Shown piece by piece: positions 1,165 to 16,297 of a DNA stretch of 37,571 nt (position 1 is its first letter; each line of letters begins with the position of its first letter). Source of the DNA: an uncultured Clostridia bacterium. Its GTDB lineage: Bacteria; Bacillota; Clostridia; Oscillospirales; UBA644. The notes under the pieces are model-generated. The model made no database searches. It worked only from the letters and a program-made list of their open reading frames with translations, and was not told the origin of the DNA. The stretch is taken from NCBI GenBank assembly GCA_944386295.1, contig CALXAO010000011.1, positions 1 through 37,571 of the forward strand, given 5' to 3'. Made by a program: the position numbers and the translations under genes.

Positions 1165-1193
1165 TTTACAATTCTTTATTTTTATGCTATTAT
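1165..1193 (+). promoter_or_regulatory. Sigma-A type promoter of the biosynthetic operon
   Basis: The -35 TTTACA (1165-1170) and -10 TATTAT (1188-1193) are separated by exactly 17 bp. The start codon of the first gene is about 60 bp further downstream, preceded by AAGGAG at 1245-1250. It is the only good promoter seen before the tightly packed genes that follow, so it probably drives the whole operon. Confidence 0.7.
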
Positions 1194-1255
1194 AGATACG
1201 ATAAAACATAAAATGTGTCGACATCTGTCGGCCAAATTTTCTGCAAGGAGCATTT

Positions 1256-2056
1256 ATGACTACAGTTACAGTTGCATGTCCGTTTCAAAGTTCTGTTTGT
1301 GTTCAAACCGAGGATCGGGCGCTATTAAAAAATTTGCGATTAAAATATGGACAATATTTGTTGGACGGCGACAATAACAAGGCGGAATTTCGTCTGTGCG
1401 AACAAGAAAACGGGAAGTACAAAGCAATTGGCGACGGAAAAACAATAGAGGTTGATTCTTCCTTAAATTATATTTCCGCTTTTCTCACCAGAACCAGAAC
1501 CTTTTCCCCAAAAATTCTTGCCCTGCACGGTGCGGCTGTTGCATACGGCGGAAATGCGTATTTGTTTTTGGCACCGACAACCGGAGGGAAAACAACACTT
1601 ACAGCATGGCTGACAGAACGGGGAGCCGACTATATAACCGATGATTGCATTTTGATTAACCGGGAAACTCTGGAGGTCTACCCCTGCACCACGCCCATTC
1701 ACCTGCGTACAGGTGGGGTCACAGTGCTTCGGGAGCAAAATGCACTTCCGGAAGGACTGGAACACCTGGACGCCCCTGGATTTGAACGCTGGGTATTTAC
1801 ACCGAAGAATCGCGTCTCTGGCCCGGTTCCCTTAGGGAAAATCTACTTTTTATCTCGGACAGATCAAAACAGACATGTCCCGTTATCCTCTAACGATGCC
1901 TTTATCCGTCTGTTAAAGTCTCCCATTACAGAATATCCTGTTACGCCATCCCATTTACAAATCATGTCCCGCCTGACGACAACGGCGCCCTGTGAGCTGC
2001 AATATCGGGATATGACCTTTCCAGAGGAGGTGTTGCGCAATAAATCCCATGCATAA
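1256..2056 (+). CDS. HPr kinase-like P-loop protein (HprK-related)
   Basis: This 266-residue protein resembles the C-terminal kinase domain of HPr kinase/phosphorylase. A 'LHGAAV' strand precedes a Walker-A-like loop 'APTTGGKTT' (residues 106-114, Lys112), then 'YITDDCILI' with the paired acidic residues Asp129-Asp130, and later 'PLGKIYFLSR'. The first Gly of the P-loop is replaced by Ala. The N-terminal HprK domain is absent, and no HPr or PTS gene is nearby. Such HprK relatives occur beside PqqD-like proteins and nucleotidyltransferases in peptide clusters, and one phosphorylates the lasso peptide paeninodin (family knowledge). A substrate role here is inferred. The start is ATG 1256 with AAGGAG five bases upstream. 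Its end overlaps the next start by 8 bp. Confidence 0.8.
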   Translation: MTTVTVACPFQSSVCVQTEDRALLKNLRLKYGQYLLDGDNNKAEFRLCEQENGKYKAIGDGKTIEVDSSLNYISAFLTRTRTFSPKILALHGAAVAYGGNAYLFLAPTTGGKTTLTAWLTERGADYITDDCILINRETLEVYPCTTPIHLRTGGVTVLREQNALPEGLEHLDAPGFERWVFTPKNRVSGPVPLGKIYFLSRTDQNRHVPLSSNDAFIRLLKSPITEYPVTPSHLQIMSRLTTTAPCELQYRDMTFPEEVLRNKSHA

Positions 2057-2753
2057 TCTTTTGCCCCATATCATCCGTCTGAAAGGGAAAGCAGATATTA
2101 CGGTCGAAGGCGTCAGTATGAATCCTACGCTTGCGGCAGGAGATGTCGTAACCGTTTGTACAGGAACGTATCTTCCAGGAGATATTCTGGTCTTTTTTTA
2201 TAAGGAAGGCTTCCTGTTAATTCATCGACTGCTGTACATAAAAAACGGTCGTTATTTTTGTAAGGGGGACAATGCCCTACGCGTGGAGGATTTGACGGAA
2301 GACAAAATTGTAGGAAAGGCCGTGGCGGTCAACGGATTCCCCCTGTCCCCGTGGCCAAAATGGAAGATTGAGCTTTCCCGGAAGGTAGGGAAAGAACTCC
2401 ACCGATGCAGTTATGACCCAAATCGGACGAAACAAAGCAAAATTTATCAGATATATCAATTACTTGTTTTAAAAAGAAAGGAAGAACCTATTATGTATCA
2501 AAAAAATAAGGACCTTACTTATATTCTCACCGATGAAACTTCTCTTGCGATTTTTAATCCCGAATCGGGAGAAACACATCTTTTGGATGATATCGGAATT
2601 GCCATTCTCGACCGCCTGAATGAACCGATAGCGTTGGACACCTTGCTGGAAAGTCTTTGCAAAGAATTTGACGCGGAGCCCACACAAATCCACGACGATG
2701 TAGAGGCCTTTTTGGCAGAAATGATTCAGAAAAAGGTGGTATTGTTGGGATGA
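2049..2753 (+). CDS. S26 signal-peptidase-like domain fused to a PqqD-like domain
   Basis: The protein has 234 residues. Residues 1 to about 110 look like a type I signal peptidase core: 'VEGVSMNPTL' carries the nucleophile Ser23, 'PGDILVFF' lies at 43-50, 'LLIHRLL' puts His59 where bacterial enzymes have Lys, and 'KGDNA' is at 72-76. The Ser/His arrangement recalls SipW/ER-type peptidases. No membrane segment is visible, which is unusual for that family. Residues from about 149 to 234 resemble a PqqD-type peptide-binding domain. A leader-peptidase plus leader-binding function is inferred. The ORF overlaps its upstream neighbour by 8 bp and the radical SAM gene by 4 bp (ATGA). Confidence 0.75.
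   Translation: MHNLLPHIIRLKGKADITVEGVSMNPTLAAGDVVTVCTGTYLPGDILVFFYKEGFLLIHRLLYIKNGRYFCKGDNALRVEDLTEDKIVGKAVAVNGFPLSPWPKWKIELSRKVGKELHRCSYDPNRTKQSKIYQIYQLLVLKRKEEPIMYQKNKDLTYILTDETSLAIFNPESGETHLLDDIGIAILDRLNEPIALDTLLESLCKEFDAEPTQIHDDVEAFLAEMIQKKVVLLG
2477..2495 (+). promoter_or_regulatory. Internal ribosome-binding site and in-frame ATG for free PqqD
   Basis: AAAGGAAG (2477-2484) stands 8 bp before an in-frame ATG at 2493, exactly where the PqqD-like domain starts (residue 149 of the long ORF). This suggests that a separate 86-residue PqqD-like protein is also made, or that two ancestral genes fused by losing a stop codon. Confidence 0.5.
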
Positions 2754-3769
2754 CCGTTCATTCTATTTATCTGGAAATTACCAATCAGTGTAATTTAAAC
2801 TGCCGCACCTGCTACAACCGTTCCGGAATAAACCGGGAACGAAAGGAAATTTCGCCCAAACAAACAGAGCAGATTATTCAGACTTTTTTGCCTGACGGAC
2901 TGCAGCGGGTTCTTTTTTCCGGAGGAGAACCCACATTACATACACAATTTGAGCAAATACTTCGCCTTATAGACCGTTATCCTGCATTGTCCTTTGGACT
3001 TGTTACCAATGGAACCGTGCACTCTCCAGCACTGATTGAAGCAATTAACACCCGCAAAAATTTTTGGATACAAATTAGTCTGGACGGATCGACCGAAGAG
3101 GTCAACGCGAAAACCCGAGGCATGGGAAATTTTGCAAAAACACTGGATTTTATTCGACAACTGAAAACGCCGGCAACGCCGCCGCTAATGAAATGCGTTT
3201 TGTCACAGCAAAATCTGGACGATCTGGAAGCCTATTATGATCTCGCCTGTTCGCTGAACTGCATTCCCGAATTTGCCGCCATATACCGTTCCGGCAATGG
3301 AGCGTCTAATTGGGAACAGAAAGTTCTTTCTCCTCAGCAGCGGATCGGAATTCTTTCTCGAATCAAAACGCTGAACCAAACCTATGGCATTTCCGCGTTC
3401 CTGCCCCACTGTACAGGAACCTGCCCCTTTTCCACGGAAACGTTGAAACTTTCCCTTTGTGTTCGTACCGACGGTGCGGTTCAGCCCTGTCAAATGCTGT
3501 ACGGGGACAAGTTTACCCTAACCAATATGTTCTGTTTTGATCGGAAAGAATTCCAAGAAAATCTTGACCGCATCTGCAGGATTGCCGTTGCCCGAAAACA
3601 AAAGGATTACGGCTGTTATTCCTGCCCCCTACGGGGATTCTGCGGCAAAGGCTGCATGGCCATGGCGGAAGATCTGGAGGGGGATCCCACGGGATGCGAC
3701 GGAGACTGCGACTTGCGGCGGCTGCAGCTTTTTTCATTTCATAGGAAGGAGGCTCTTAAATTACGGTGA
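2750..3769 (+). CDS. Radical SAM/SPASM domain protein
   Basis: This 339-residue enzyme has the radical SAM cluster motif 'CNLNCRTC' (Cys14, Cys18, Cys21) and the SAM-binding 'FSGGEP' (56-61). Its C-terminal third is Cys-rich, with 'HCTGTCPF', 'LCVRTDGAVQPCQ', 'YGCYSCPLRGFCGKGC' and 'GCDGDC'. This is the pattern of a SPASM domain carrying extra 4Fe-4S clusters. Enzymes of this class modify ribosomal peptides (thioether, C-C links, epimerisation) or mature other proteins, usually with a PqqD-like leader-binding partner, and one is encoded directly upstream. The exact reaction cannot be read from the sequence. The start ATG overlaps the preceding stop, and the stop overlaps the GTG start of the ABC gene. 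Confidence 0.9.
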   Translation: MTVHSIYLEITNQCNLNCRTCYNRSGINRERKEISPKQTEQIIQTFLPDGLQRVLFSGGEPTLHTQFEQILRLIDRYPALSFGLVTNGTVHSPALIEAINTRKNFWIQISLDGSTEEVNAKTRGMGNFAKTLDFIRQLKTPATPPLMKCVLSQQNLDDLEAYYDLACSLNCIPEFAAIYRSGNGASNWEQKVLSPQQRIGILSRIKTLNQTYGISAFLPHCTGTCPFSTETLKLSLCVRTDGAVQPCQMLYGDKFTLTNMFCFDRKEFQENLDRICRIAVARKQKDYGCYSCPLRGFCGKGCMAMAEDLEGDPTGCDGDCDLRRLQLFSFHRKEALKLR

Positions 3770-5578
3770 AACAAAAACAGAACGCCCCGGCTGTCTGGAA
3801 AAACAATTTGTTTCTTCTCAAAGAAATTCAAAAAGCTTCGCCCAGGCGAATTGTCCTGGGAATAACCGTTATTTTTCTAAAATCAGTTTCTTATTTTATG
3901 TTTGATGTTTACATGCTCCGTTATATTTTAAACAGCTTGCAAACAGGACAAGCTTTTCATGAAATCGTTCTGTTTATTCTGTGTATTGCTGTTTATCATT
4001 TGGGCGTATGTATTCTGGAAAACTGGTTTTACAGTGCTTATGTTCCGATATCCGATCAAAAAATTACCCGGCATTTGCAAAAAAAAGTTTTTGAAAAAGC
4101 AGTCTTGGTGGATCTGGCCTGCTTTGAAGACCCCAAATTCTATGATAAGTATGTCAAGGCCGCAGGAGAAGCATCTCAGCGAACGGGGCAGGTACTGGCA
4201 ACCCTAAACCGAATTGTCCAATATATATTTACACTTTCCGCCATGTCTTTTGTCATTTTCACCATTGATCCCGTCTTGATCGTATTCGCCGTAATTCCCT
4301 TTGTCACAAGCTTCATTTTTGGCAGAAGACTAAACAAAATTAACTATGAATATCAAATGAAAAAAAAGGAGGGTATCCGGAAACGGGATTATTCACTTCG
4401 GTTATTTTATCTGCAGGATTATGCCAAGGAATTACGGATGAGTCATATCAACCGTGTCGTTCTTCTTCGGTTCCGGGATACGATCCGGGATCTAAAGAAA
4501 CTGATTCAAGATTATGGAGTAAAAACAGCACTATTGGATTATGTTCTTCAGGCAACCAATGATATTCTAGTATATCTCGGCGCGGTCTTTTACGCTGCGT
4601 GGAAAACCGTAGTCAAAAAAAGCATGCTGCTCGGAGATTGCGTTGTTGTAATCAACTCTATTAATTCTGTAGCCGCTTCTTTGCGGGGAACGGTGGAACT
4701 TTATTTGCAGTTCCAGAAACATGCGCTTTATGTAGAAGATTTAAAACAGTTTTTGGAGGCGCCCACCATACTATCGGACAAAACAAATGCGCTGCCCTGT
4801 CCGCCCTTTGAACGGTTGATTTTTCAAAAGATAGGATTCACCTATCCCAAACAGTCCGGTGAGGTCTTAAAAAATGTAGACTTTACCTTGTGTTCCGGAG
4901 AGAAAATTGCTCTTGTAGGTTTGAATGGCGCCGGAAAAACGACTTTTATTAAACTGCTGCTGCGGTTATACGATCCGATTTCCGGACAAATAGAATACAA
5001 CGGAATTCCCCTAAAGGAAATAGACCCCATTTCCTATCGTAAACAATTTTCCGTTGTTTTTCAGGACTATAAGTTATATGCTTTTTTCCCTGATCGACAA
5101 TCTTCTTTTGCGGGAGGAAAGGAACGGTGATCGGCCGTATGCCGAACAGCTGTTAAAAAAGTTTGGTCTTTATGATAAAATCTGTGCTGCGCCGCAAGGG
5201 CTGGACAATGACTTGACGCGGGAATTCAGGAAAGACGGCCTTGTTTTATCTACCGGGGAACAGCAAAAACTGGCCATTATTCGGGCGTTAATGAATCCAG
5301 TTCCAATTCTGATTATGGATGAACCGTCCTCCGCCATTGATCCCATCTCCGAATCACAAATTTTTAAAACCGTAATGCAGGAAAGCGGAAACCGAACAGT
5401 TGTATTTATTTCGCATCGCCTGTCCGCCACCCAATACGCCGATAAGATCTATGTTTTTGACAATGGAGCAATTTGTGAGTCCGGGACCCACGAAAGACTT
5501 CTTGCAAAACAGGGCATTTATGCCAATCTGTGGGAAAAGCAAGCCGAAAATTATCGGAAGCTGGAGGAATACGGATGA
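3766..5578 (+). pseudogene. ABC exporter (TMD-NBD), frameshifted in the nucleotide-binding domain
   Basis: The gene encodes a half-transporter of the ABC exporter type, broken into two frames. The first part (GTG 3766 to 5130) has hydrophobic segments and the Walker A 'GLNGAGKTT' near residue 385. The second part carries the signature 'LSTGEQQK', Walker B 'ILIMDEPSS' and the H-loop 'ISHRLS', ending at 5578. The break is at the T6 tract 5082-5087. Reading five T residues gives a continuous product that aligns with the next ABC protein. This could be a real mutation, a sequencing error, or slippage expression. No C39 peptidase domain is present. AGGAAGGAGG (3743-3752) lies 13 bp before GTG. Confidence 0.85.
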
Positions 5579-7380
5579 AAATTTTGAAAAACAATTGGTT
5601 TATGCTAAAATGGATCTATCAATATACTCCGGGATTTTTCTTTGCAACCATCGCAGAGGGACTTGTTTGGGGGTGCATTCACTCTTTTACAAGCGTACTT
5701 TTTATTAAAATGCTCTTTGACCGCATTGAATCTGCCGCACCGTTTGAACAGATTGTTTCCGTGATTGGCGGGATGGCTGTATTTCTTGTTCTTGCCTATA
5801 TTTTTCATGAATGGTATTGGAAGTTCTTGGAGCCCAAAGCAGAACAGGAATTACATAGCCAAATGCAACAGACCTTGTTTAAAAAGGCGATTGCCATGGA
5901 CTTGGCCTGTTATGACAATCCGGAGTTTTATAATGATTTTGTTTGGGCAGTCCGGGAGGCAGACCGCCGTGCAATAGCAGTGGCAAAGGAATTCGGGAAG
6001 GTCATTAACCGGGGATTTTCTTCTTTGGTAATTATTAGCGTTCTGTTTACGGTAGATCCAATTATTGTCGGAGTTATTTGTGTCGCGGTTGGGATTTCCG
6101 TTGCCATTCGTTTGTGGCAAACAAAACTGCAATTTCACAAAGAAGAGGAAATTCGTCCCATTCAAAGGAAAACAAACTATGTAAATCGGACTTTTTACCT
6201 TGCGGATTATGCAAAGGAATTACGGATGAGCAATGCAGGAGAGCTTCTTCACCGGCATTATGACCACGCTGTGGAAAATATTGTAAATATTCATCAAAAA
6301 TTCGCGCCAAAACTTTTCATAGCAGGATTATTACGGAGCGTGGCCGTTTCTACTCTGTTTGACGTGGGAATTCTTTTGCTTTTGGTTTACAAAATTAGCG
6401 TTCAAAAAACAATTACTTTAGGAGATTTCGCAGCTTCGCTCAGCGCCACATGGAAGTTATTCCGGCAAATTCAGGATTTAATGGCCCGTTTGGCAAAATT
6501 TAAGGAACACAGCCTTTATACAGAGAAATTCCGTGCTTTTCTGGAGTATCAAATTACAGTGCAGGATTCCAGTTCTGCCAAGGCTTTGGAAGCCCCCTTA
6601 AATGAAATTTCTTTTCAGAATGTCTCCTTTGCATATCCGGAAGCTTCCCATCCCACATTAAAAAACCTTACCTTTGTAATTCCTAAGTATCGGAAAATTG
6701 CTATTGTAGGACCGAATGGGGCGGGAAAAACGACTTTAATCAAGTTGATAACCCGAATGTATAACCCTACCGAGGGAGAAATTCGGATCAACGGTGTCCC
6801 TGTTTCGGAGTACACGATTCACTCGGTACGGGAAAAGATCGGAATTACGTTTCAGGACTATAAGATTTATGCGACTTCTGTAGCGGAAAACATCCTGATG
6901 GATCTTTTTTCCAAGGAAGATGAGCCGGCACTGCAGCATTCGTTAGCAATCAGCGGTTTTTCAGAAAAAGTCGCGTCTCTGCCTGACGGGTTAAAAACAG
7001 AGCTGACCCGGGAATTTCATCCCAAAGGAACAGTATTGTCCGGAGGAGAGCAGCAACGGATTGCCGTTTCCCGTGCCTTTGCGCGGGATTATGATCTGAT
7101 TATTCTAGATGAACCCTCTGCGGCGTTGGATCCCGTTATTGAATATGAATTGAACCGTAAATTGGATGAAACAATTACAAACAAAACCGTTATTCTCATT
7201 TCCCATCGTCTTTCCACGGTCTGTATGGCGGATGAAATCTTTATGATGGAGAACGGACAAATTGTAGAACGGGGAACCCATGGGGAATTAATGCGGCTAA
7301 ATGGAAAATATGCGGAAATGTTCCGTATTCAGGCTGAAAAATACCATCAGGAGGAAAATTATGAAACAAAAAATATTTGA
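5575..7380 (+). CDS. ABC exporter, TMD-NBD half-transporter
   Basis: This intact 601-residue half-transporter has an N-terminal membrane domain with several hydrophobic segments and a C-terminal ATPase. Walker A 'GPNGAGKTT' is near residue 380, the signature 'LSGGEQQR' near 488, Walker B 'LIILDEPSA' near 510 and the H-loop 'ISHRLS' near 543. It is a diverged paralogue of the preceding ABC gene, and both share stretches such as 'YAKELRMS' and 'FQDYK', so the two probably form a heterodimer. Export of the cluster product is inferred. ATG 5575 was chosen because GGAGGA stands just before it and it overlaps the upstream TGA (ATGA). The longer frame beginning at 5530 lacks such a site. Confidence 0.92.
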   Translation: MKILKNNWFMLKWIYQYTPGFFFATIAEGLVWGCIHSFTSVLFIKMLFDRIESAAPFEQIVSVIGGMAVFLVLAYIFHEWYWKFLEPKAEQELHSQMQQTLFKKAIAMDLACYDNPEFYNDFVWAVREADRRAIAVAKEFGKVINRGFSSLVIISVLFTVDPIIVGVICVAVGISVAIRLWQTKLQFHKEEEIRPIQRKTNYVNRTFYLADYAKELRMSNAGELLHRHYDHAVENIVNIHQKFAPKLFIAGLLRSVAVSTLFDVGILLLLVYKISVQKTITLGDFAASLSATWKLFRQIQDLMARLAKFKEHSLYTEKFRAFLEYQITVQDSSSAKALEAPLNEISFQNVSFAYPEASHPTLKNLTFVIPKYRKIAIVGPNGAGKTTLIKLITRMYNPTEGEIRINGVPVSEYTIHSVREKIGITFQDYKIYATSVAENILMDLFSKEDEPALQHSLAISGFSEKVASLPDGLKTELTREFHPKGTVLSGGEQQRIAVSRAFARDYDLIILDEPSAALDPVIEYELNRKLDETITNKTVILISHRLSTVCMADEIFMMENGQIVERGTHGELMRLNGKYAEMFRIQAEKYHQEENYETKNI

Positions 7381-8554
7381 AATTTTGAATGAAGTCATTG
7401 ATACAGAAAAACCGATTTGCTTTTCCGACGAAACAGACCTTTCAGAGGCAGGATTAACCTCTATAAAATTTATTCAATTTATTGTGAAACTGGAAGAAAC
7501 CTTTTCCATTGAAATTTTGGACAGCGATCTTACGCTCCAAAAATTTAAAACTGTGAAAAAAATGTTTGAGACGCTTTCAACCTATATTTCTCCGGAAAAA
7601 AGTTTTATCAAAAAGGTTCTTGTCAGCGATTGCGACAACGTTCTTTGGCAGGGAATTGCCGGAGAAGAACCGCTTTCAATCGGGCAAAGGGAATCTGAAT
7701 ATCAATCCTTACTCCAAAAACTATATAACGAAGGCGTACTGCTTTGCCTTTGCAGTAAAAATGAGCCAGAACACATTTCGGAAGCCTTTGCTATGGGAGA
7801 AATGAAATTGACATGGGAGCATTTTATTGCGCATCGAATCAACCGAAAAGATAAAGCCTCAAATTTGCGAGATCTTGCCTTTGAATTGAATCTTTCCCTT
7901 GAAAGCTTTGTTTTTGTAGACGACAGCAATTACGAAATCGGATTGATTCAAAACCTATTGCCAGAGGTGACTGCAATTCCCGCAGATGGAGGAAATCTTT
8001 GGATTGAGGAAATTCGCAGTCTTTTTTCCCTGCCGTCTAAAGAAGAGCGCAATCGAACGGAATTGTATCGAGAACAGAAGAATAGGGAACAGGCAAAGGC
8101 AAAGTATTCCTCTGCAGAGGAATATAACCGTTCACTTCAAACAGTTACTATTTGTAAAACCGCATCGGAAGAACAGATTCCCCGTCTTTCGGAATTATCC
8201 CTCAGAACCAATCAATGTAATTTATCTCTTGCCCGTTATACGGAAGAAGACTTGCGGTTATTGATTCAAGACCCCGCGGTAACAGTTCTCGCGCTTTCCG
8301 CGTCAGATCAATACGGCGATATGGGCATTGTGGGCGGCGCCGTATTACGTAGGGGAGAAGAAGCAGTGATTGAAGGGTTTTATTTGTCCTGCCGGGTATT
8401 TGACAGAGGCTTCGAAGAAATTCTTTTGTCCGAACTCCAAGCAGCGGCAGGAAATGTTCTCCTTGCGGGAATTTTGAAAAAATCCGCTAAAAATAAGAAT
8501 TACCACAACTTCTATCAAAAAAACGGAGTTAAGGTCTATGAACAAAATCCTTGA
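7361..8554 (+). CDS. ACP domain fused to FkbH-like HAD protein with C-terminal GNAT-like region
   Basis: The protein has 397 residues. Residues 1-75 look like an acyl carrier protein: 'LSEAGLTSIKFIQF' places Ser34 as the probable phosphopantetheine site. Residues from about 85 to 220 match FkbH-type HAD proteins, with 'VSDCDNVLW' (Asp90, Asp92), 'CSKNEPEH' (131-138) and 'FVDDSNYE' (185-192). The usual Thr of the DxDxT loop is Val94. The remainder resembles the GNAT-like tail of this family. FkbH proteins load a glyceryl unit from 1,3-bisphosphoglycerate onto an ACP (family knowledge). Having both parts in one chain within a radical SAM/PqqD operon is unusual. The start ATG 7361 follows AGGAGG by 6 bp and overlaps the ABC gene by 20 bp. 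Confidence 0.85.
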   Translation: MKQKIFEILNEVIDTEKPICFSDETDLSEAGLTSIKFIQFIVKLEETFSIEILDSDLTLQKFKTVKKMFETLSTYISPEKSFIKKVLVSDCDNVLWQGIAGEEPLSIGQRESEYQSLLQKLYNEGVLLCLCSKNEPEHISEAFAMGEMKLTWEHFIAHRINRKDKASNLRDLAFELNLSLESFVFVDDSNYEIGLIQNLLPEVTAIPADGGNLWIEEIRSLFSLPSKEERNRTELYREQKNREQAKAKYSSAEEYNRSLQTVTICKTASEEQIPRLSELSLRTNQCNLSLARYTEEDLRLLIQDPAVTVLALSASDQYGDMGIVGGAVLRRGEEAVIEGFYLSCRVFDRGFEEILLSELQAAAGNVLLAGILKKSAKNKNYHNFYQKNGVKVYEQNP

Positions 8555-9599
8555 ATTGGTTTGTCACATATTAAACCAAGCATATAAAAAAAAATTGACA
8601 GACGGAGAACTTTTTGATCTTTTTTCTCAGCATAAATGTGCAGGACTTCTGTATGAATTATCCTGTCCAAAGGAAAAACAGCAGGAAATTGCTTTTTATA
8701 AAATGCTGAATCGAAATATAATTTATGTTCGGTATCAGAGCTGTGCTTCCATTTTTACGCAATTAGAAAAACAAAAAATCCCCTATGCGGTAATAAAAGG
8801 AGCAGTGTTATCCTTGTCTTTATATGGAAACGCCTTTGTGCGGAGATCCGGGGATATTGATCTTCTAATCTGTCGCAATGACGCAGATCGGATAAAGCAG
8901 CTGCTTTTATCCGAGGGATTTATCCAAGGTCGAATTACAGAGCAGGGAATTGTTCCGTTTTCACGGTATGAACTACTCTATTATACAGCACAAACCCATC
9001 AGCTTGCACCGTTTATTCGAAAAACAAACAATCCGCTTTGTCCATATGTTAATGTAGATGTTAATTTTGATCTTCTTTGGGGAGAAGCGAACAGATCCCT
9101 TACTATGGATTTTGTTCTCTCCAAGACCGAATTGGTATCGATTTGTAATGTCACAGTGCGAAAACTGAAAACAGAAATGGAATTTATTTCTCTATGCCTG
9201 CATCATTATAAGGATATGAATTCTCTTTATCTTCTTTACAAAGGAAAATTAAAACTAGGACTGTTTTGCGATCTTTACGCTTATCTTTCTAATGCCGCTC
9301 CAGATCCAAAGCATCTCGCAGAATTGTGTGATACATTGTCAGTTTCCTTGTATGTAAAAAAATGTATTTCAGATACAGAAAAGGTTTTTGGTAAGAATAC
9401 GTTGACCCAGCGGTATCTACAATACCTGCATTGTCCAAATCTACCCGATACTTATGGTCTTGCAAAAACAGAGATACATCCTTGGCCTTTTGCTTTACCG
9501 GAACGTCTTTTTGTTGATATTCGTTCTTATTTTGATCAAACATTATCTTTGGAGGAAAAAGAAAAAATCAAGCTAAACAACACAGTTATGATGTTATAA
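8538..9599 (+). CDS. Nucleotidyltransferase family protein (NTP_transf_5-like)
   Basis: This 353-residue protein carries the pattern of the family-5 nucleotidyltransferases: 'VIKGAVLS' (Lys87-Gly88), then 'YGNAFVRRSGDIDLLI' (96-111), with Asp106 and Asp108 as likely metal ligands. Members sit beside HprK-like kinases in lasso peptide clusters, and in pseudomycoidin such a protein was linked to decoration of the phosphorylated peptide (recalled knowledge). By analogy it may act on a phosphate or on the glyceryl/ACP chemistry encoded upstream, but this is inference. The start overlaps the FkbH gene by 17 bp. It is the last gene of the operon, and a hairpin follows 49 bp after the stop. Confidence 0.8.
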   Translation: MNKILELVCHILNQAYKKKLTDGELFDLFSQHKCAGLLYELSCPKEKQQEIAFYKMLNRNIIYVRYQSCASIFTQLEKQKIPYAVIKGAVLSLSLYGNAFVRRSGDIDLLICRNDADRIKQLLLSEGFIQGRITEQGIVPFSRYELLYYTAQTHQLAPFIRKTNNPLCPYVNVDVNFDLLWGEANRSLTMDFVLSKTELVSICNVTVRKLKTEMEFISLCLHHYKDMNSLYLLYKGKLKLGLFCDLYAYLSNAAPDPKHLAELCDTLSVSLYVKKCISDTEKVFGKNTLTQRYLQYLHCPNLPDTYGLAKTEIHPWPFALPERLFVDIRSYFDQTLSLEEKEKIKLNNTVMML

Positions 9600-9648
9600 A
9601 ATTTTTTTGCGGAAAGCGCTCAATTATTACAATTACCTGCACTTAAAT

Positions 9649-9703
9649 AAACAACACCATTGATATCCGAACCATAAAGATTCAAATATCAATGGTGTTG
9701 TTT
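9649..9703. terminator. Long perfect hairpin after the biosynthetic operon
   Basis: Two 18-bp arms (9649-9666 and 9686-9703) are perfectly complementary and contain ACAACACCATTGATAT and its complement, separated by 19 bp. It ends in TTT on the plus strand and AAA precedes it, so it can act in both directions. It probably terminates the operon. A closely related hairpin lies about 290 bp further on. Confidence 0.6.
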
Positions 9704-9936
9704 AATGCCTAAGCCACATGAAAAAGATATTTTTGCGTTTTCGGAGGTGGGAGTTGAACTCTTGCATTGAATAGGACATTGAAAAGAGCAATAAGAAAAC
9801 ATTCAGGAGAGAAGTGCTTTCGCAGCGTATACGAAATCAGACACAGGGGAGGCGAGTCTGCCCGTTTTATTTTTTCTTTCGTCAATTTGAATAAAAAGCG
9901 AAAATCCCCCAAACCCGCACAAGTACTGACTTTATA
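9704..9936. other. Non-coding stretch between twin hairpins
   Basis: No convincing gene is seen. A 67-codon minus-strand frame (9709-9912) lacks recognisable motifs and a ribosome-binding site. A patch near 9740-9760 (GGAGGTGGGAGTTGAACTC) resembles the T-arm end of a tRNA on the minus strand, but no full cloverleaf can be drawn. The stretch is probably debris of a mobile element. Confidence 0.35.
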
Positions 9937-10052: not shown

Positions 10053-11424
10053 TTATTCATTAGGTATTGCTTCCTTTAATTTCTTTTTAGTATTTCCGTT
10101 TAATTTCCAGTAGGTAAATATAATAGCCGATAAAACAGCAGTCAAAAGGTCGGATGCTAGCATTGAGTAAAGAACACCGTCAAGTTCAAAGAAAATCGGT
10201 AGCAAAAATGCAAAGCCAACGCCGAACACAACCTCACGCACCATTGAAAGCGTTATTGAAGATATTGCCTTTCCCATAACTTACAAGAATATAAAATACA
10301 AGCAAGGATAATACCCTTAATTGCAAATTCAGTATAGTAGGCACTTTCGTTTGCCGCACCAAAAATGTTGATAATTGTCCACGGAAAGAACTCAACCAAG
10401 ATAAAGCCTATAAGTTCGACTGCCGCTTCTGAAACGAGCAGCATTGTAAAGAGCTTCTTCACTCTCTGTTTAAGGTTATTGTATCCGATAATCGGAATAC
10501 AGCCTGCCGTCATACCTACGATAATGGAAATGACGATTTGGAAAAATTTCGTTACGATATCAACAATCGCCGTCGGAATTTGAGCATACTGCTCCTGTCC
10601 AAAAATCGCGTCCGTTGCACCGTATTTTCGAATCATATTGTTAATTGCCGCTGTAGCTGCAACAAGCGAGATTTGAGAGAGAAAACTGCAAACACAAGCG
10701 AAAGCGTTTGGCTGATAATCTTTCCGCTGAGCTTGAAATCTGTCTTTTTCATTTTGACGATTTTTGTGTAGCAAAGATACCAAATTGCAAGCAAGAATTA
10801 CGGTTGCAATTTGTCCGATAACCGTTGCACTCACCGCACTTACCATCCCCATTTTCGGGCAACCAAACCAACTGTAAATCATAATCAGTCAAGGATAATA
10901 TTGATAACTGTCTCTGTAACGGTAGATACCATTGCAAACTTCAAACTTCCGTCCGCACGGACAACCCTGCCCGAACATATAAAACGGGATACCGAGTGAG
11001 ATCCAAAAGAAATATTCTTTGCTGTGCTTAAAGGTTTCAGCGTTAACTGTACCGCGAACATAGCAATAATTTTGTCCATAAAAATCAAGTAAAATTTCCA
11101 TAAGTCCAATACTTGAAATAATAGAGTTTACCATACTTTTTGAAGCCTTCTCTGGCTTACCCTTGCCAAAACAAAGGCTTACAAAAGCGCGGCAACGTCA
11201 TCAATCATAACCGCAATGGCAAGGGCTATAACCGTTAGAGGGAATACAATGGTATTAGCGACGTTCCCGTAAGAGCCTAAATAATCGGCATTAGCAATAT
11301 AAATTTGGTCAACGATGTTATAAAGTGCGCCTACAAGAAGCGAAAGAATACAAGGAATTGTATATTTGCTCATTAGTTTACGGACCTTTTTAATGGCGAG
11401 AAATGAATTGTAATGTTTTTCCAT
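10053..11424 (-). pseudogene. MATE family multidrug efflux transporter, multiply frameshifted
   Basis: Fragments in different minus-strand frames together cover a MATE transporter of about 455 codons. The N-terminus starts at ATG 11424 behind AGGAGGT and shows 'IPCILSLLVGALYNIVDQIYI'-type sequence. The middle (about 10885-11180) shows 'HSKEYFFWISLGIPFYMFGQG', then the large fragment 10253-10882, then the C-terminus ending at 10053. At least three frame changes are needed, near 11190, 10885 and 10265, plus small indels, so this is a decayed gene and not a single sequencing error. Its AT-rich codon use differs from the core genes downstream of 12796. It once exported cationic drugs or metabolites by Na+ or H+ antiport (family knowledge). 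Confidence 0.85.
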
Positions 11425-11450
11425 ATTCAGATTACCTCCTATTTTCAGCA

Positions 11451-11491
11451 AAAAATAATGCGTAAACCCAGTTAGACTGGGCTTACGCATT
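11451..11491 (-). terminator. Minus-strand hairpin with T-run before the MATE pseudogene
   Basis: Arms 11457-11471 and 11477-11491 (AATGCGTAAACCCAG and its near complement, one mismatch) enclose a 5-base loop. On the minus strand the hairpin is followed by ATTATTTTTT. It lies only about 27 bp before the MATE start, so it may be an attenuator in the leader or the terminator of a lost upstream gene. Confidence 0.6.
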
Positions 11492-14340: not shown

Positions 14341-15234
14341 TCAGGAACAAAGGGCATACCGGCACAACACCTGACGCAGCCGCTCCCGGTTTGTCTCCGA
14401 AAGCTCGCATAGAGGCAGGCGGCAAGAACCGACCGAACGGCCCATAAGGGCCAAGGCGGCTTTCACCGGAATGGGGTTTACCTCGCAGAACAGGGCATCA
14501 ATAAGGTCCATCAGACCAATTTGCGCCCGAGCGCTACCCTTCACGTCCCCTTCAAAAAACTTCATACACACAGTATGCACCCGGTCGGGCACAATATTCG
14601 AGGCAACCGAAATCACTCCCATGGCCCCCAGAGACAACATAGGTGTAATCAAAGCATCGTCCCCCGAATAGACGACCAGATTTTCTCCGCACAAGCGGAC
14701 AGTCCGAGCCACCGCCGCCAAGTCGCCGGAGGCCTCTTTAACTGCAACAATATTCTCTGTTTCCGCCAAGACAGCATAGGTTTCCGGGTGGATACCTACC
14801 CCAGTTCGGGAGGGCACGTTGTAAAGAATCAAAGGTAAGGCCGTGCTTGCAGCCACCGTCCAGTAATGCCGGATTAACCCCTCCTGGGTTGTTTTATTGT
14901 AATAGGGAGTAACCACCAGTCCTCCATCGGCCCCTGCAGCTTCCGCCTGACGTGCCAAACGGCAGGCCCGGGCAGTGTCGTTGCTGCCACACCCGGCAAT
15001 GACCGGCACCCGGCCGGCCACTTTATATACCGTCCGACGAATAATTTCAGCCTGTTCCTCCTCAGTCAGCGTAGAAGCCTCGCCGGTGGTTCCACACACA
15101 ATTAGGGCATCGGACCCGCCGGCAATCTGAGTTTCAGTCAATTCCTCTAGACGGGAATAATCTACCTCTCCACTGTCCAAAAAGGGGGTGACTAAAGCCA
15201 CCCCCGCACCGACAAAAATCGGTTGCTTGCTCAA
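14341..15234 (-). CDS. dapA: 4-hydroxy-tetrahydrodipicolinate synthase
   Basis: This 297-residue enzyme condenses pyruvate and aspartate semialdehyde. Visible landmarks are 'CGTTGE' (47-52, the active-site Thr pair), 'TPYYNK' (109-114), 'LYNVPSRTG' (Tyr138, Arg143) and 'AVKEASGD' with the Schiff-base Lys166. All catalytic positions are kept. The start appears to be TTG 15234, preceded by GAAAGGAAA; the nearby ATG is out of frame. It is the middle gene of the asd-dapA-ACT operon. Its product feeds both diaminopimelate for the cell wall and, through dpaAB at 28-29.5 kb, spore dipicolinate. Confidence 0.96.
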   Translation of the reverse strand: MSKQPIFVGAGVALVTPFLDSGEVDYSRLEELTETQIAGGSDALIVCGTTGEASTLTEEEQAEIIRRTVYKVAGRVPVIAGCGSNDTARACRLARQAEAAGADGGLVVTPYYNKTTQEGLIRHYWTVAASTALPLILYNVPSRTGVGIHPETYAVLAETENIVAVKEASGDLAAVARTVRLCGENLVVYSGDDALITPMLSLGAMGVISVASNIVPDRVHTVCMKFFEGDVKGSARAQIGLMDLIDALFCEVNPIPVKAALALMGRSVGSCRLPLCELSETNRERLRQVLCRYALCS

Positions 15235-15298
15235 TTCGTACCATTTCCTTTCTTACCAAAGAATTTGGGAAAGAAGCGGCACTTTTTTATTTCGGAAT

Positions 15299-16297
15299 TC
15301 AATTTTTCTCCCAAAGCTCAATCAAACGCAAAGCAATCTGCACAGCGTTTGTAGCAGCACCCTTGCGGATATTGTCAGCGACCACCCACATATTCAAGCC
15401 GTTTTCAACACTGTCATCCCGACGCAGACGACCCACAAATACCTCATTGTGTCCCTTCGCAGTAATTGCCATGGGATACAGGTTATTAGCCGGATCATCC
15501 TGCACCACGATTCCCTCTGACGTAGCCAGAAGTTCCCGCAACTCCGTCAAATCAAAGGGACGATCAAATTCCACATTGATCGACTCACTGTGGCAATCAA
15601 ACACCGGAACCCGGACAGTGGTAGCAGTAATCCGAAGATCGTCCCGGCCCAGAATCTTCCGGGTTTCGTTAACCATCTTCAGTTCTTCTTTGGTGTAGCC
15701 GCTTTCGGTAAACACATCGATATGGGGCAAACAGTTGGAAAAAATCGGATAGGGAAACTTCTGGGGGGCTTCGCCACAGATTCCGCTTTTCAAATCATTC
15801 CATCCGCCCATGCCGGCGCCCGAAACCGCCTGATACGTAGAATAGACAATGCGTTTGATACGGTATTTGTCATCCAGGGGCTTGAGGGCAACCACCGCCT
15901 GGATGGTAGAACAGTTGGGATTAGCAATGATTCCCTTATGTTTGGCAATGTCGCCAGAATTAACCTCCGGTACCACCAGAGGGACCTCCGGGTCCATCCG
16001 CCAGGCCGAACTGTTGTCAATAACTACACAGCCCTTGGCCGCAGCAATGGGGGCAAAGTGCTTGCTGGTATCCCCGCCGGCCGAAAACAGAGCAATGTCA
16101 AAACCGCTGTCAAAGGAAGTATCGGTCAATTCCTGCACAGTATGCGTCTTTCCCATGAAATCCAGCTCTGTCCCGGCAGACCGTGCCGACGAAAACAGTG
16201 TGTAGTCGGCGTCCAGTTTGTACTCCTCAAGAACCTTTAGAAAGGTCCGGCCCACCATGCCGGTCGCACCTGCGACCGCAATTTTATACTTTGCCAT
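15299..16297 (-). CDS. asd: Aspartate-semialdehyde dehydrogenase
   Basis: This 332-residue enzyme reduces aspartyl phosphate to the semialdehyde with NADPH. The N-terminal nucleotide loop 'VAGATGMVG' is at 8-16, and the catalytic cysteine is Cys129 in 'NPNCST'. 'SAGGDTSKHF' and 'TATTVRVPVF' are typical of the family. ATG 16297 is preferred because GGGAGAG stands before it and the protein then begins with 'MAKYKIAVAG'. The open frame continues 29 codons further upstream but overlaps the promoter. It is the first gene of the operon, divergent from argS. Confidence 0.96.
   Translation of the reverse strand: MAKYKIAVAGATGMVGRTFLKVLEEYKLDADYTLFSSARSAGTELDFMGKTHTVQELTDTSFDSGFDIALFSAGGDTSKHFAPIAAAKGCVVIDNSSAWRMDPEVPLVVPEVNSGDIAKHKGIIANPNCSTIQAVVALKPLDDKYRIKRIVYSTYQAVSGAGMGGWNDLKSGICGEAPQKFPYPIFSNCLPHIDVFTESGYTKEELKMVNETRKILGRDDLRITATTVRVPVFDCHSESINVEFDRPFDLTELRELLATSEGIVVQDDPANNLYPMAITAKGHNEVFVGRLRRDDSVENGLNMWVVADNIRKGAATNAVQIALRLIELWEKN

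Follow-up and report, generated by a model that had tools for sequence, protein, structure and literature searches.

A compact operon near the start of contig CALXAO010000011.1, from an uncultured Clostridia bacterium (Oscillospirales, UBA644; assembly GCA_944386295.1), raises the question of which product could call on an HprK-like kinase, a protease, a PqqD domain, a radical SAM enzyme, two ATP-binding cassette (ABC) transporters, an FkbH protein and a nucleotidyltransferase encoded side by side. The window, i.e. the whole stretch of DNA analysed, covers 37,571 nucleotides of the forward strand. An earlier note on it, made from the sequence alone, had described this gene set without a substrate. 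A candidate substrate was now identified, a precursor family encoded in related loci, and the operon is considered, with a probability of about 0.72, to mature and export a new family of ribosomally synthesised and post-translationally modified peptides (RiPPs).

The operon lies on the + strand at positions 1256-9599 and comprises seven genes with successive overlaps of 8, 4, 4, 4, 20 and 17 bp. The open reading frame (ORF) table gives this chain, already described in the earlier note, at the same positions and on the same strand. That note had listed the protease and PqqD separately; both families are present, as one fused protein. The genes, with the evidence for each in brackets, are as follows.

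1256-2056, + strand: HprK-like kinase (P-loop GKTTL and TDDC invariant among 18 relatives; HprK_rel_A, 37 bits).
2049-2753, + strand: protease-PqqD fusion, a SEC11/SipW-type signal-peptidase fold joined to a PqqD-type RiPP recognition element (RRE) (profiles; structural model; invariant S23, H59 and D74).
2750-3769, + strand: radical SAM/SPASM peptide maturase (Cys motifs invariant among 23 relatives; profiles).
3766-5578, + strand: ABC transporter 1 (ABC1), frameshifted at about 5042-5085 (tblastn with three intact relatives).
5575-7380, + strand: ABC transporter 2 (ABC2) (ORF and ABC_tran profile; counterpart at locus L092 56% identical).
7361-8554, + strand: acyl carrier protein (ACP) fused to FkbH (profiles; DxD and carrier Ser invariant among 13 relatives).
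8538-9599, + strand: NTP_transf_5 nucleotidyltransferase-like protein (PF14907, 91 bits; KGAVLS...DxD conserved among 9 relatives).

Among 394 genomes of the order, three proved in a search to encode full-length relatives of the ACP-FkbH protein (44-52% identity) and one more encodes it in split form; all four loci carried the kinase, protease-PqqD (split in one), radical SAM, ACP-FkbH and NTP_transf_5 genes in the same order. A scan of 84,980 species genomes with an alignment of the protease-PqqD protein yielded 19 loci, all in metagenome-assembled genomes (MAGs) and nearly all labelled Clostridia, Oscillospiraceae or similar, with one labelled Opitutales. Three loci possessed all seven genes in the order of the window (L092, L095, L097), and about 15 further ones kept most of the set (L033-L036, L090, L091, L093, L094, L096, L099-L107). 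The earlier note had made the idea of a single system depend on whether the seven families are together in this genome only, and the same set was found in other genomes. Because it recurs there in the same order, the arrangement is more than chance and the operon is, judged by its conservation, one system. More distant clusters possessed the kinase, protease, PqqD and radical SAM genes without FkbH. The recurrent core consists of a regulator, a precursor, the kinase, protease, PqqD, radical SAM and NTP_transf_5 genes, and FkbH-ACP and the ABC pair are accessories found in a subset of loci.

Several relatives showed variations of their own. In the clade formed by L070, L073, L074 and L075, FkbH was not found nearby, the protease was fused to NTP_transf_5 (about 711 amino acids), and the precursors had CS...C cores without a C-terminal Arg. 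L097, labelled Opitutales, carried an operon about 50% identical to those of Clostridia, pointing to mis-binning or transfer, and its NTP_transf_5 gene was split over two frames. In L104 (81-7340), and in the corresponding region of L035, the operon has a second cluster beside it, which comprises two HprK-like kinases, a 539-residue protein joining an S24 protease to a radical SAM domain, and additional radical SAM genes. A related cluster in L071 (5558-19528) encoded a kinase, a different precursor-like ORF, PqqD, a radical SAM enzyme and a YcaO protein, as well as a protease, NTP_transf_5, an ACP and FkbH. Searches of IMG/VR and of plasmids returned no relatives of the protease-PqqD fusion, only ordinary FkbH proteins.

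Within the related loci, small ORFs with ribosome-binding sites shared a common pattern that had not been sought in advance. These putative precursors are 34-55 residues long, their WxxP leader being followed by an AxA junction of signal-peptidase type and a core of the form X-S-x(1-7)-C, mostly ending in Arg. The W-x-x-P leader, a Ser at core position 2 and a Cys 1-7 residues later were found in 37 peptides, with a C-terminal Arg in 30 and a small residue (A, G or S) before the core in 36. Signal peptidases follow the (-3,-1) rule, to which these small residues are a fit. Core starts were chosen automatically, and five, in peptides with extra Ser, were re-read by eye. Apart from the Ser, the Cys and the C-terminal Arg, the cores vary widely in sequence and range from 9 to 25 residues, many having only 9-11. 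Three precursors with the proposed cut are given as examples.

Precursor at L034: MRKLWNKPVCNTLTAQSLSSHIKAAA before the proposed cut and WSGETMCIFGVFR after it.
Precursor at L097: MKKWVKPVVVELSAKELAKHIQAAA before the proposed cut and RSGQCFAGDFR after it.
Precursor at L103: MKKEWKKPIFNTVVADALKMHIQAAA before the proposed cut and WSGCRFGNFR after it.

A profile built from 14 of these small ORFs recovered every member in leave-one-out searches (E 1e-5 to 2e-15) and also picked up more distant members. At the whole-genome level it matched in 12 of 14 operon genomes, unlinked copies included; for L092, L093, L095 and L100, with none at the operon locus, the precursor was found elsewhere in the genome, as also in the genome of L033. 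NCBIfam models gave no match to the six precursors tested. Two candidate explanations for the C-terminal Arg were dropped: a tie to NTP_transf_5, which also occurs in distant clades and is there also fused to the protease, and a tie to FkbH, as genomes G055 and G161 still have the Arg without an FkbH match.

The precursor gene was nearly always located directly behind the gene for an ArsR-type regulator, even when unlinked from the operon, the clear exception being L035, where it lies between ACP-FkbH and NTP_transf_5. The regulator genes are homologous and encode a C-terminal ArsR-type helix-turn-helix (HTH) domain; they played no part in the precursor search, and all checked genome-wide matches adjoin one. 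Often they diverge from the operon, at times they are located at another place in the genome, and some genomes possess two regulator-precursor cassettes, sometimes with different cores. In L094, regulators at 7803-8855 and 15149-16207 flank one operon, with a recognisable precursor behind the second only. Among 388 genomes of the order, both operon and precursor were found in 9, the operon only in 4, the precursor only in 3 (all incomplete) and neither in 372, i.e. totals of 13 and 12; operon and precursor co-occur (Fisher p 3e-13, with no correction for phylogeny). These comparisons show a short candidate precursor gene that travels with the operon, directly behind a regulator gene, bearing out the earlier suggestion that radical SAM and PqqD together point to ribosomal peptide modification. 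For the regulator N-terminal domain, a fold search matched the ArsR part only, and peptide sensing therefore remains a guess.

At the level of individual enzymes, profile scores were 47 bits for PqqD, 78 for Radical_SAM, 64 and 107 for ABC_tran, 34 for PP-binding, 217 for FkbH (cut-off 147) and 91 for NTP_transf_5. The kinase matched HprK-related models only, all below cut-off (HprK_rel_A in NCBIfam, 37 bits vs 200). Sequence evidence for the protease half was weak (Peptidase_S24, E 0.0025; archaeal-type signal peptidase model, 37 bits, below cut-off; sequence match to SEC11A, E 7e-5). It was nevertheless assigned to the signal peptidases because its SxMxP, HR and KGDN boxes with Ser-His-Asp are invariant among 19 relatives and the fold is predicted confidently (predicted local distance difference test score, 92). 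In this model, one half resembles signal peptidases and LexA and the other the lasso RRE TbiB1 (template modelling score of the PqqD half, 0.82 by target). No hydrophobic membrane anchor was seen in the sequence or model of the fusion, judged by eye with no dedicated predictor run. The radical SAM enzyme possesses CxxxCxxC and C-x2-C-x5-C-x3-C...C motifs that are invariant in 23 relatives, and scored below every curated maturase cut-off (e.g. StsB, 80 vs 625; PapB, 70 vs 340). The ACP-FkbH fusion combines a HAD-type FkbH domain bearing DxD with an ACP bearing the carrier Ser, and catalytic motifs are intact in the kinase, radical SAM enzyme, FkbH and nucleotidyltransferase.

In the proposed pathway, the PqqD domain would bind the WxxP leader, and the radical SAM enzyme and the kinase would act on the leader-bound core. 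Phosphorylation by the kinase would most likely fall on the invariant Ser, the second core residue, and the radical SAM enzyme would most likely introduce a cross-link or another change involving the conserved Cys. FkbH may charge its fused carrier domain with a glyceryl unit that is then passed to the peptide, perhaps by the C-terminal half of FkbH, which we take to be GNAT-like. NTP_transf_5 may add a sugar or nucleotide to the phosphate, as is thought for PsmN. The fused signal-peptidase-like domain would cut after AxA inside the cell, and the ABC transporters, where present, would export the product. Precedents for a kinase and nucleotidyltransferase acting on a peptide Ser are PadeK and PsmK/PsmN, knock-outs of the latter pair having shown phosphorylation and hexose addition (PMC9266682). 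As in the earlier note, a phospho or glyceryl modification of the peptide, and its export, are what we infer from the gene content.

Such pairing of a precursor with its own regulator, at times in two copies whose cores differ, suggests a product that serves as a peptide signal or as a self-regulated antimicrobial; the paired regulators slightly favour a signal. A more ambitious proposal, which we put forward tentatively and regard as rather doubtful in its entirety, is a new RiPP class of gut Oscillospiraceae-type bacteria, bearing a phospho-sugar or phospho-nucleotide on Ser2 together with a glyceryl group and released inside the cell by a signal peptidase with its own leader-recognition domain. 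Each precursor would have its own ArsR-type receptor, and several such pairs, served by a single maturation operon, would form a signalling network. Defence was discarded as a role, because PADLOC returned only generic viperin and Csa3-like matches (radical SAM and HTH folds). Annotation pipelines would overlook this peptide family, which belongs to gut and rumen bacteria not in culture; for it the analysis offers a testable substrate with leader and proposed cleavage site, as well as the set of genes involved. Its product may be a bacterial signal or weapon. If the chemistry proposed here is true, glyceryl-ACP chemistry and a leader protease of signal-peptidase fold become part of RiPP biosynthesis, and peptide signalling may come to light through the regulator-precursor cassettes in a little-known bacterial group.

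Several points weigh against the operon being a RiPP maturation and export unit. The fused protease could act at another site, and L105, L152 and L155 possess the same precursor type without FkbH and the ABC pair, so that neither of these is needed for the core chemistry. Claims of absence are limited because several loci lie on MAG contigs that break off near the operon, and the Fisher test on operon-precursor co-occurrence takes no account of common descent. Moreover, neither the window nor its genome contains a precursor detectable at E<=10, by a search that was positive in 12 of 14 operon genomes, and ABC1 is broken in this strain (tblastn matches to the intact relatives run in frame +1 to about 5082 and in frame +2 from about 5042), where the pathway may thus not work.

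The last two points bear on the window's own copy, around which three further features were located.

1-1073, - strand: IS30-family insertion element with the transposase at 11-976 (ORF; element end in five genome copies).
1165-1193, + strand: promoter-like site TTTACA-17-TATTAT with extended TG (consensus match only).
9648-9704, no strand assigned: terminator-like hairpin at the operon end (z -9.4).

The second of these agrees with the single promoter placed ahead of the operon by the earlier note. The IS30 element end occurs in five copies with a common outer sequence in the 200-contig genome, and four contigs besides the window's terminate in the element. Contig C100 closes with the same 107 bases with which the window opens. 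C100 carries a zinc-ribbon gene whose counterpart in L089, the nearest relative, is 55% identical (E 6e-25) and immediately precedes the kinase gene, and on this match C100 is very likely the left neighbour of the window. At a distance of about 0.85 kb from the junction, C100 also encodes a regulator that shares 45% identity with its L034 counterpart, and the IS30 element probably separates the operon from this regulator gene. The expected place of the precursor, behind the C100 regulator, is occupied by a partial copy of a neighbouring XRE gene.

The window may accordingly hold a decaying remnant of a system that works elsewhere, a reading compatible with the RiPP proposal and to which we give even odds. 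Unless gaps or errors in the assembly are to blame, decay is suggested by the missing precursor, the XRE copy and the frameshift in ABC1; the insertion of IS30 between the operon and its probable regulator fits as well. Set against this, six of the seven genes are intact with all catalytic residues present, the promoter-like site survives between the IS30 element and the first gene, and in a 200-contig MAG the precursor or the correct base may simply be missing; a second regulator fragment runs off contig C113. In L086, an XRE-type regulator lies on one side of the ArsR-type regulator and a partial copy on the other (7514-7714, - strand; 9245-9625, + strand), as if a duplication had replaced the precursor gene. 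L087 holds the start of a second ArsR-type regulator copy (6-116, - strand), with a stop codon at the contig edge. In the window, a MATE-type efflux gene (by eye; 10053-11490, - strand) is split over four overlapping or adjacent frames, and is either a pseudogene or poor sequence; the latter would also bear on the ABC1 frameshift.

Concerning the identity of the system, a redox-cofactor pathway like those of pyrroloquinoline quinone (PQQ) and mycofactocin, in which a short peptide would become a small cofactor through the action of the radical SAM enzyme and a PqqD-type chaperone, is unlikely. The mycofactocin MftC and PqqE models were among the better radical SAM matches and the precursors are short, but the cores vary widely and lack a C-terminal Val-Tyr or Glu-Tyr pair, one genome can hold duplicated cassettes with different cores, and there is a dedicated regulator and, at many loci, ABC exporters. 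Slightly less plausible still is a cell-surface glycan system in which FkbH-ACP and NTP_transf_5 make a glyceryl-substituted polysaccharide and the peptide genes are mere neighbours. Most other FkbH matches in the order are indeed about 30% identical, in proteins of about 600 amino acids, as in glycan or polyketide loci, and L080/L107 has ACP and FkbH beside glycan-type genes; however, ACP-FkbH of the kind found here overlaps NTP_transf_5 and sits among peptide enzymes in many genera, and the operon has no glycosyltransferases or flippases. A lasso-peptide relative, with the HprK-like kinase, PqqD and NTP_transf_5 decorating a threaded peptide, is very improbable: lasso clusters of Firmicutes and rumen bacteria do contain these three families (PMC9266682, PMC7533575) and the PqqD domain is closest in fold to TbiB1, but the cores lack a conserved acidic residue at positions 7-9 and are often only 9-11 residues long, and a radical SAM enzyme and a signal-peptidase-fold protease stand in place of the Asn-synthetase-like cyclase and transglutaminase-like B2 protease, for which, in line with the earlier note, the operon proteins gave no Pfam match and none was seen in the gene content of the relatives.

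The operon therefore remains best read as maturing a new family of RiPPs, and this family stands a fair chance of representing a new class. Beyond the earlier note, the analysis adds the precursors, the regulator paired with them and the logic of leader cleavage. No characterised pathway with the whole gene set, which that note could not name either, was found in the full-text literature searched, a body that leaves most subscription papers outside; it yielded lasso clusters combining HprK, PqqD and a nucleotidyltransferase (PMC7533575, PMC9266682), but no FkbH in a RiPP pathway.

Compared with known systems, the HPr-rel-A system of NCBIfam shares the PqqD (TIGR04353, PqqD_rel_X, 41.2 bits vs 35), whereas the operon kinase fails the corresponding model (TIGR04352, 37 bits vs 200). 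To our knowledge, that system has no radical SAM or FkbH gene. With the sactipeptide, ranthipeptide, SynChlorMet, mycofactocin, PqqE, SkfB and CteB maturases, the radical SAM enzyme shares CxxxCxxC, the SPASM cysteines and a Cys-containing peptide substrate, and a thioether from the single conserved core Cys, as in sactipeptides and ranthipeptides, is possible; its best scores (66-93 bits) are far under the curated cut-offs, and PqqD is fused to the protease, not to the radical SAM enzyme. The FkbH glyceryl-ACP systems of polyketides and glycans share the carrier protein and an FkbH domain above cut-off, but in the operon both are in one protein, inside a peptide-modification operon. The nickel superoxide dismutase maturation protease and the SEC11/SipW signal peptidases share the Ser-His-Asp type fold and small residues before the proposed cut, whereas the operon protease carries a fused RRE and has a RiPP leader in the cytoplasm as its predicted substrate. 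Finally, the phosphorylated lasso peptides of Firmicutes, paeninodin (PadeK) and pseudomycoidin (PsmK/PsmN), share PqqD-type leader binding, an HprK-like kinase and a nucleotidyltransferase acting on a peptide serine. Those systems possess a lasso cyclase and a transglutaminase-like B2 protease; the operon has neither, and possesses instead a protease-PqqD fusion, a radical SAM/SPASM enzyme, ACP-FkbH and an ArsR-type regulator paired with the precursor, whose conserved Ser is at core position 2 and not at the C-terminus.

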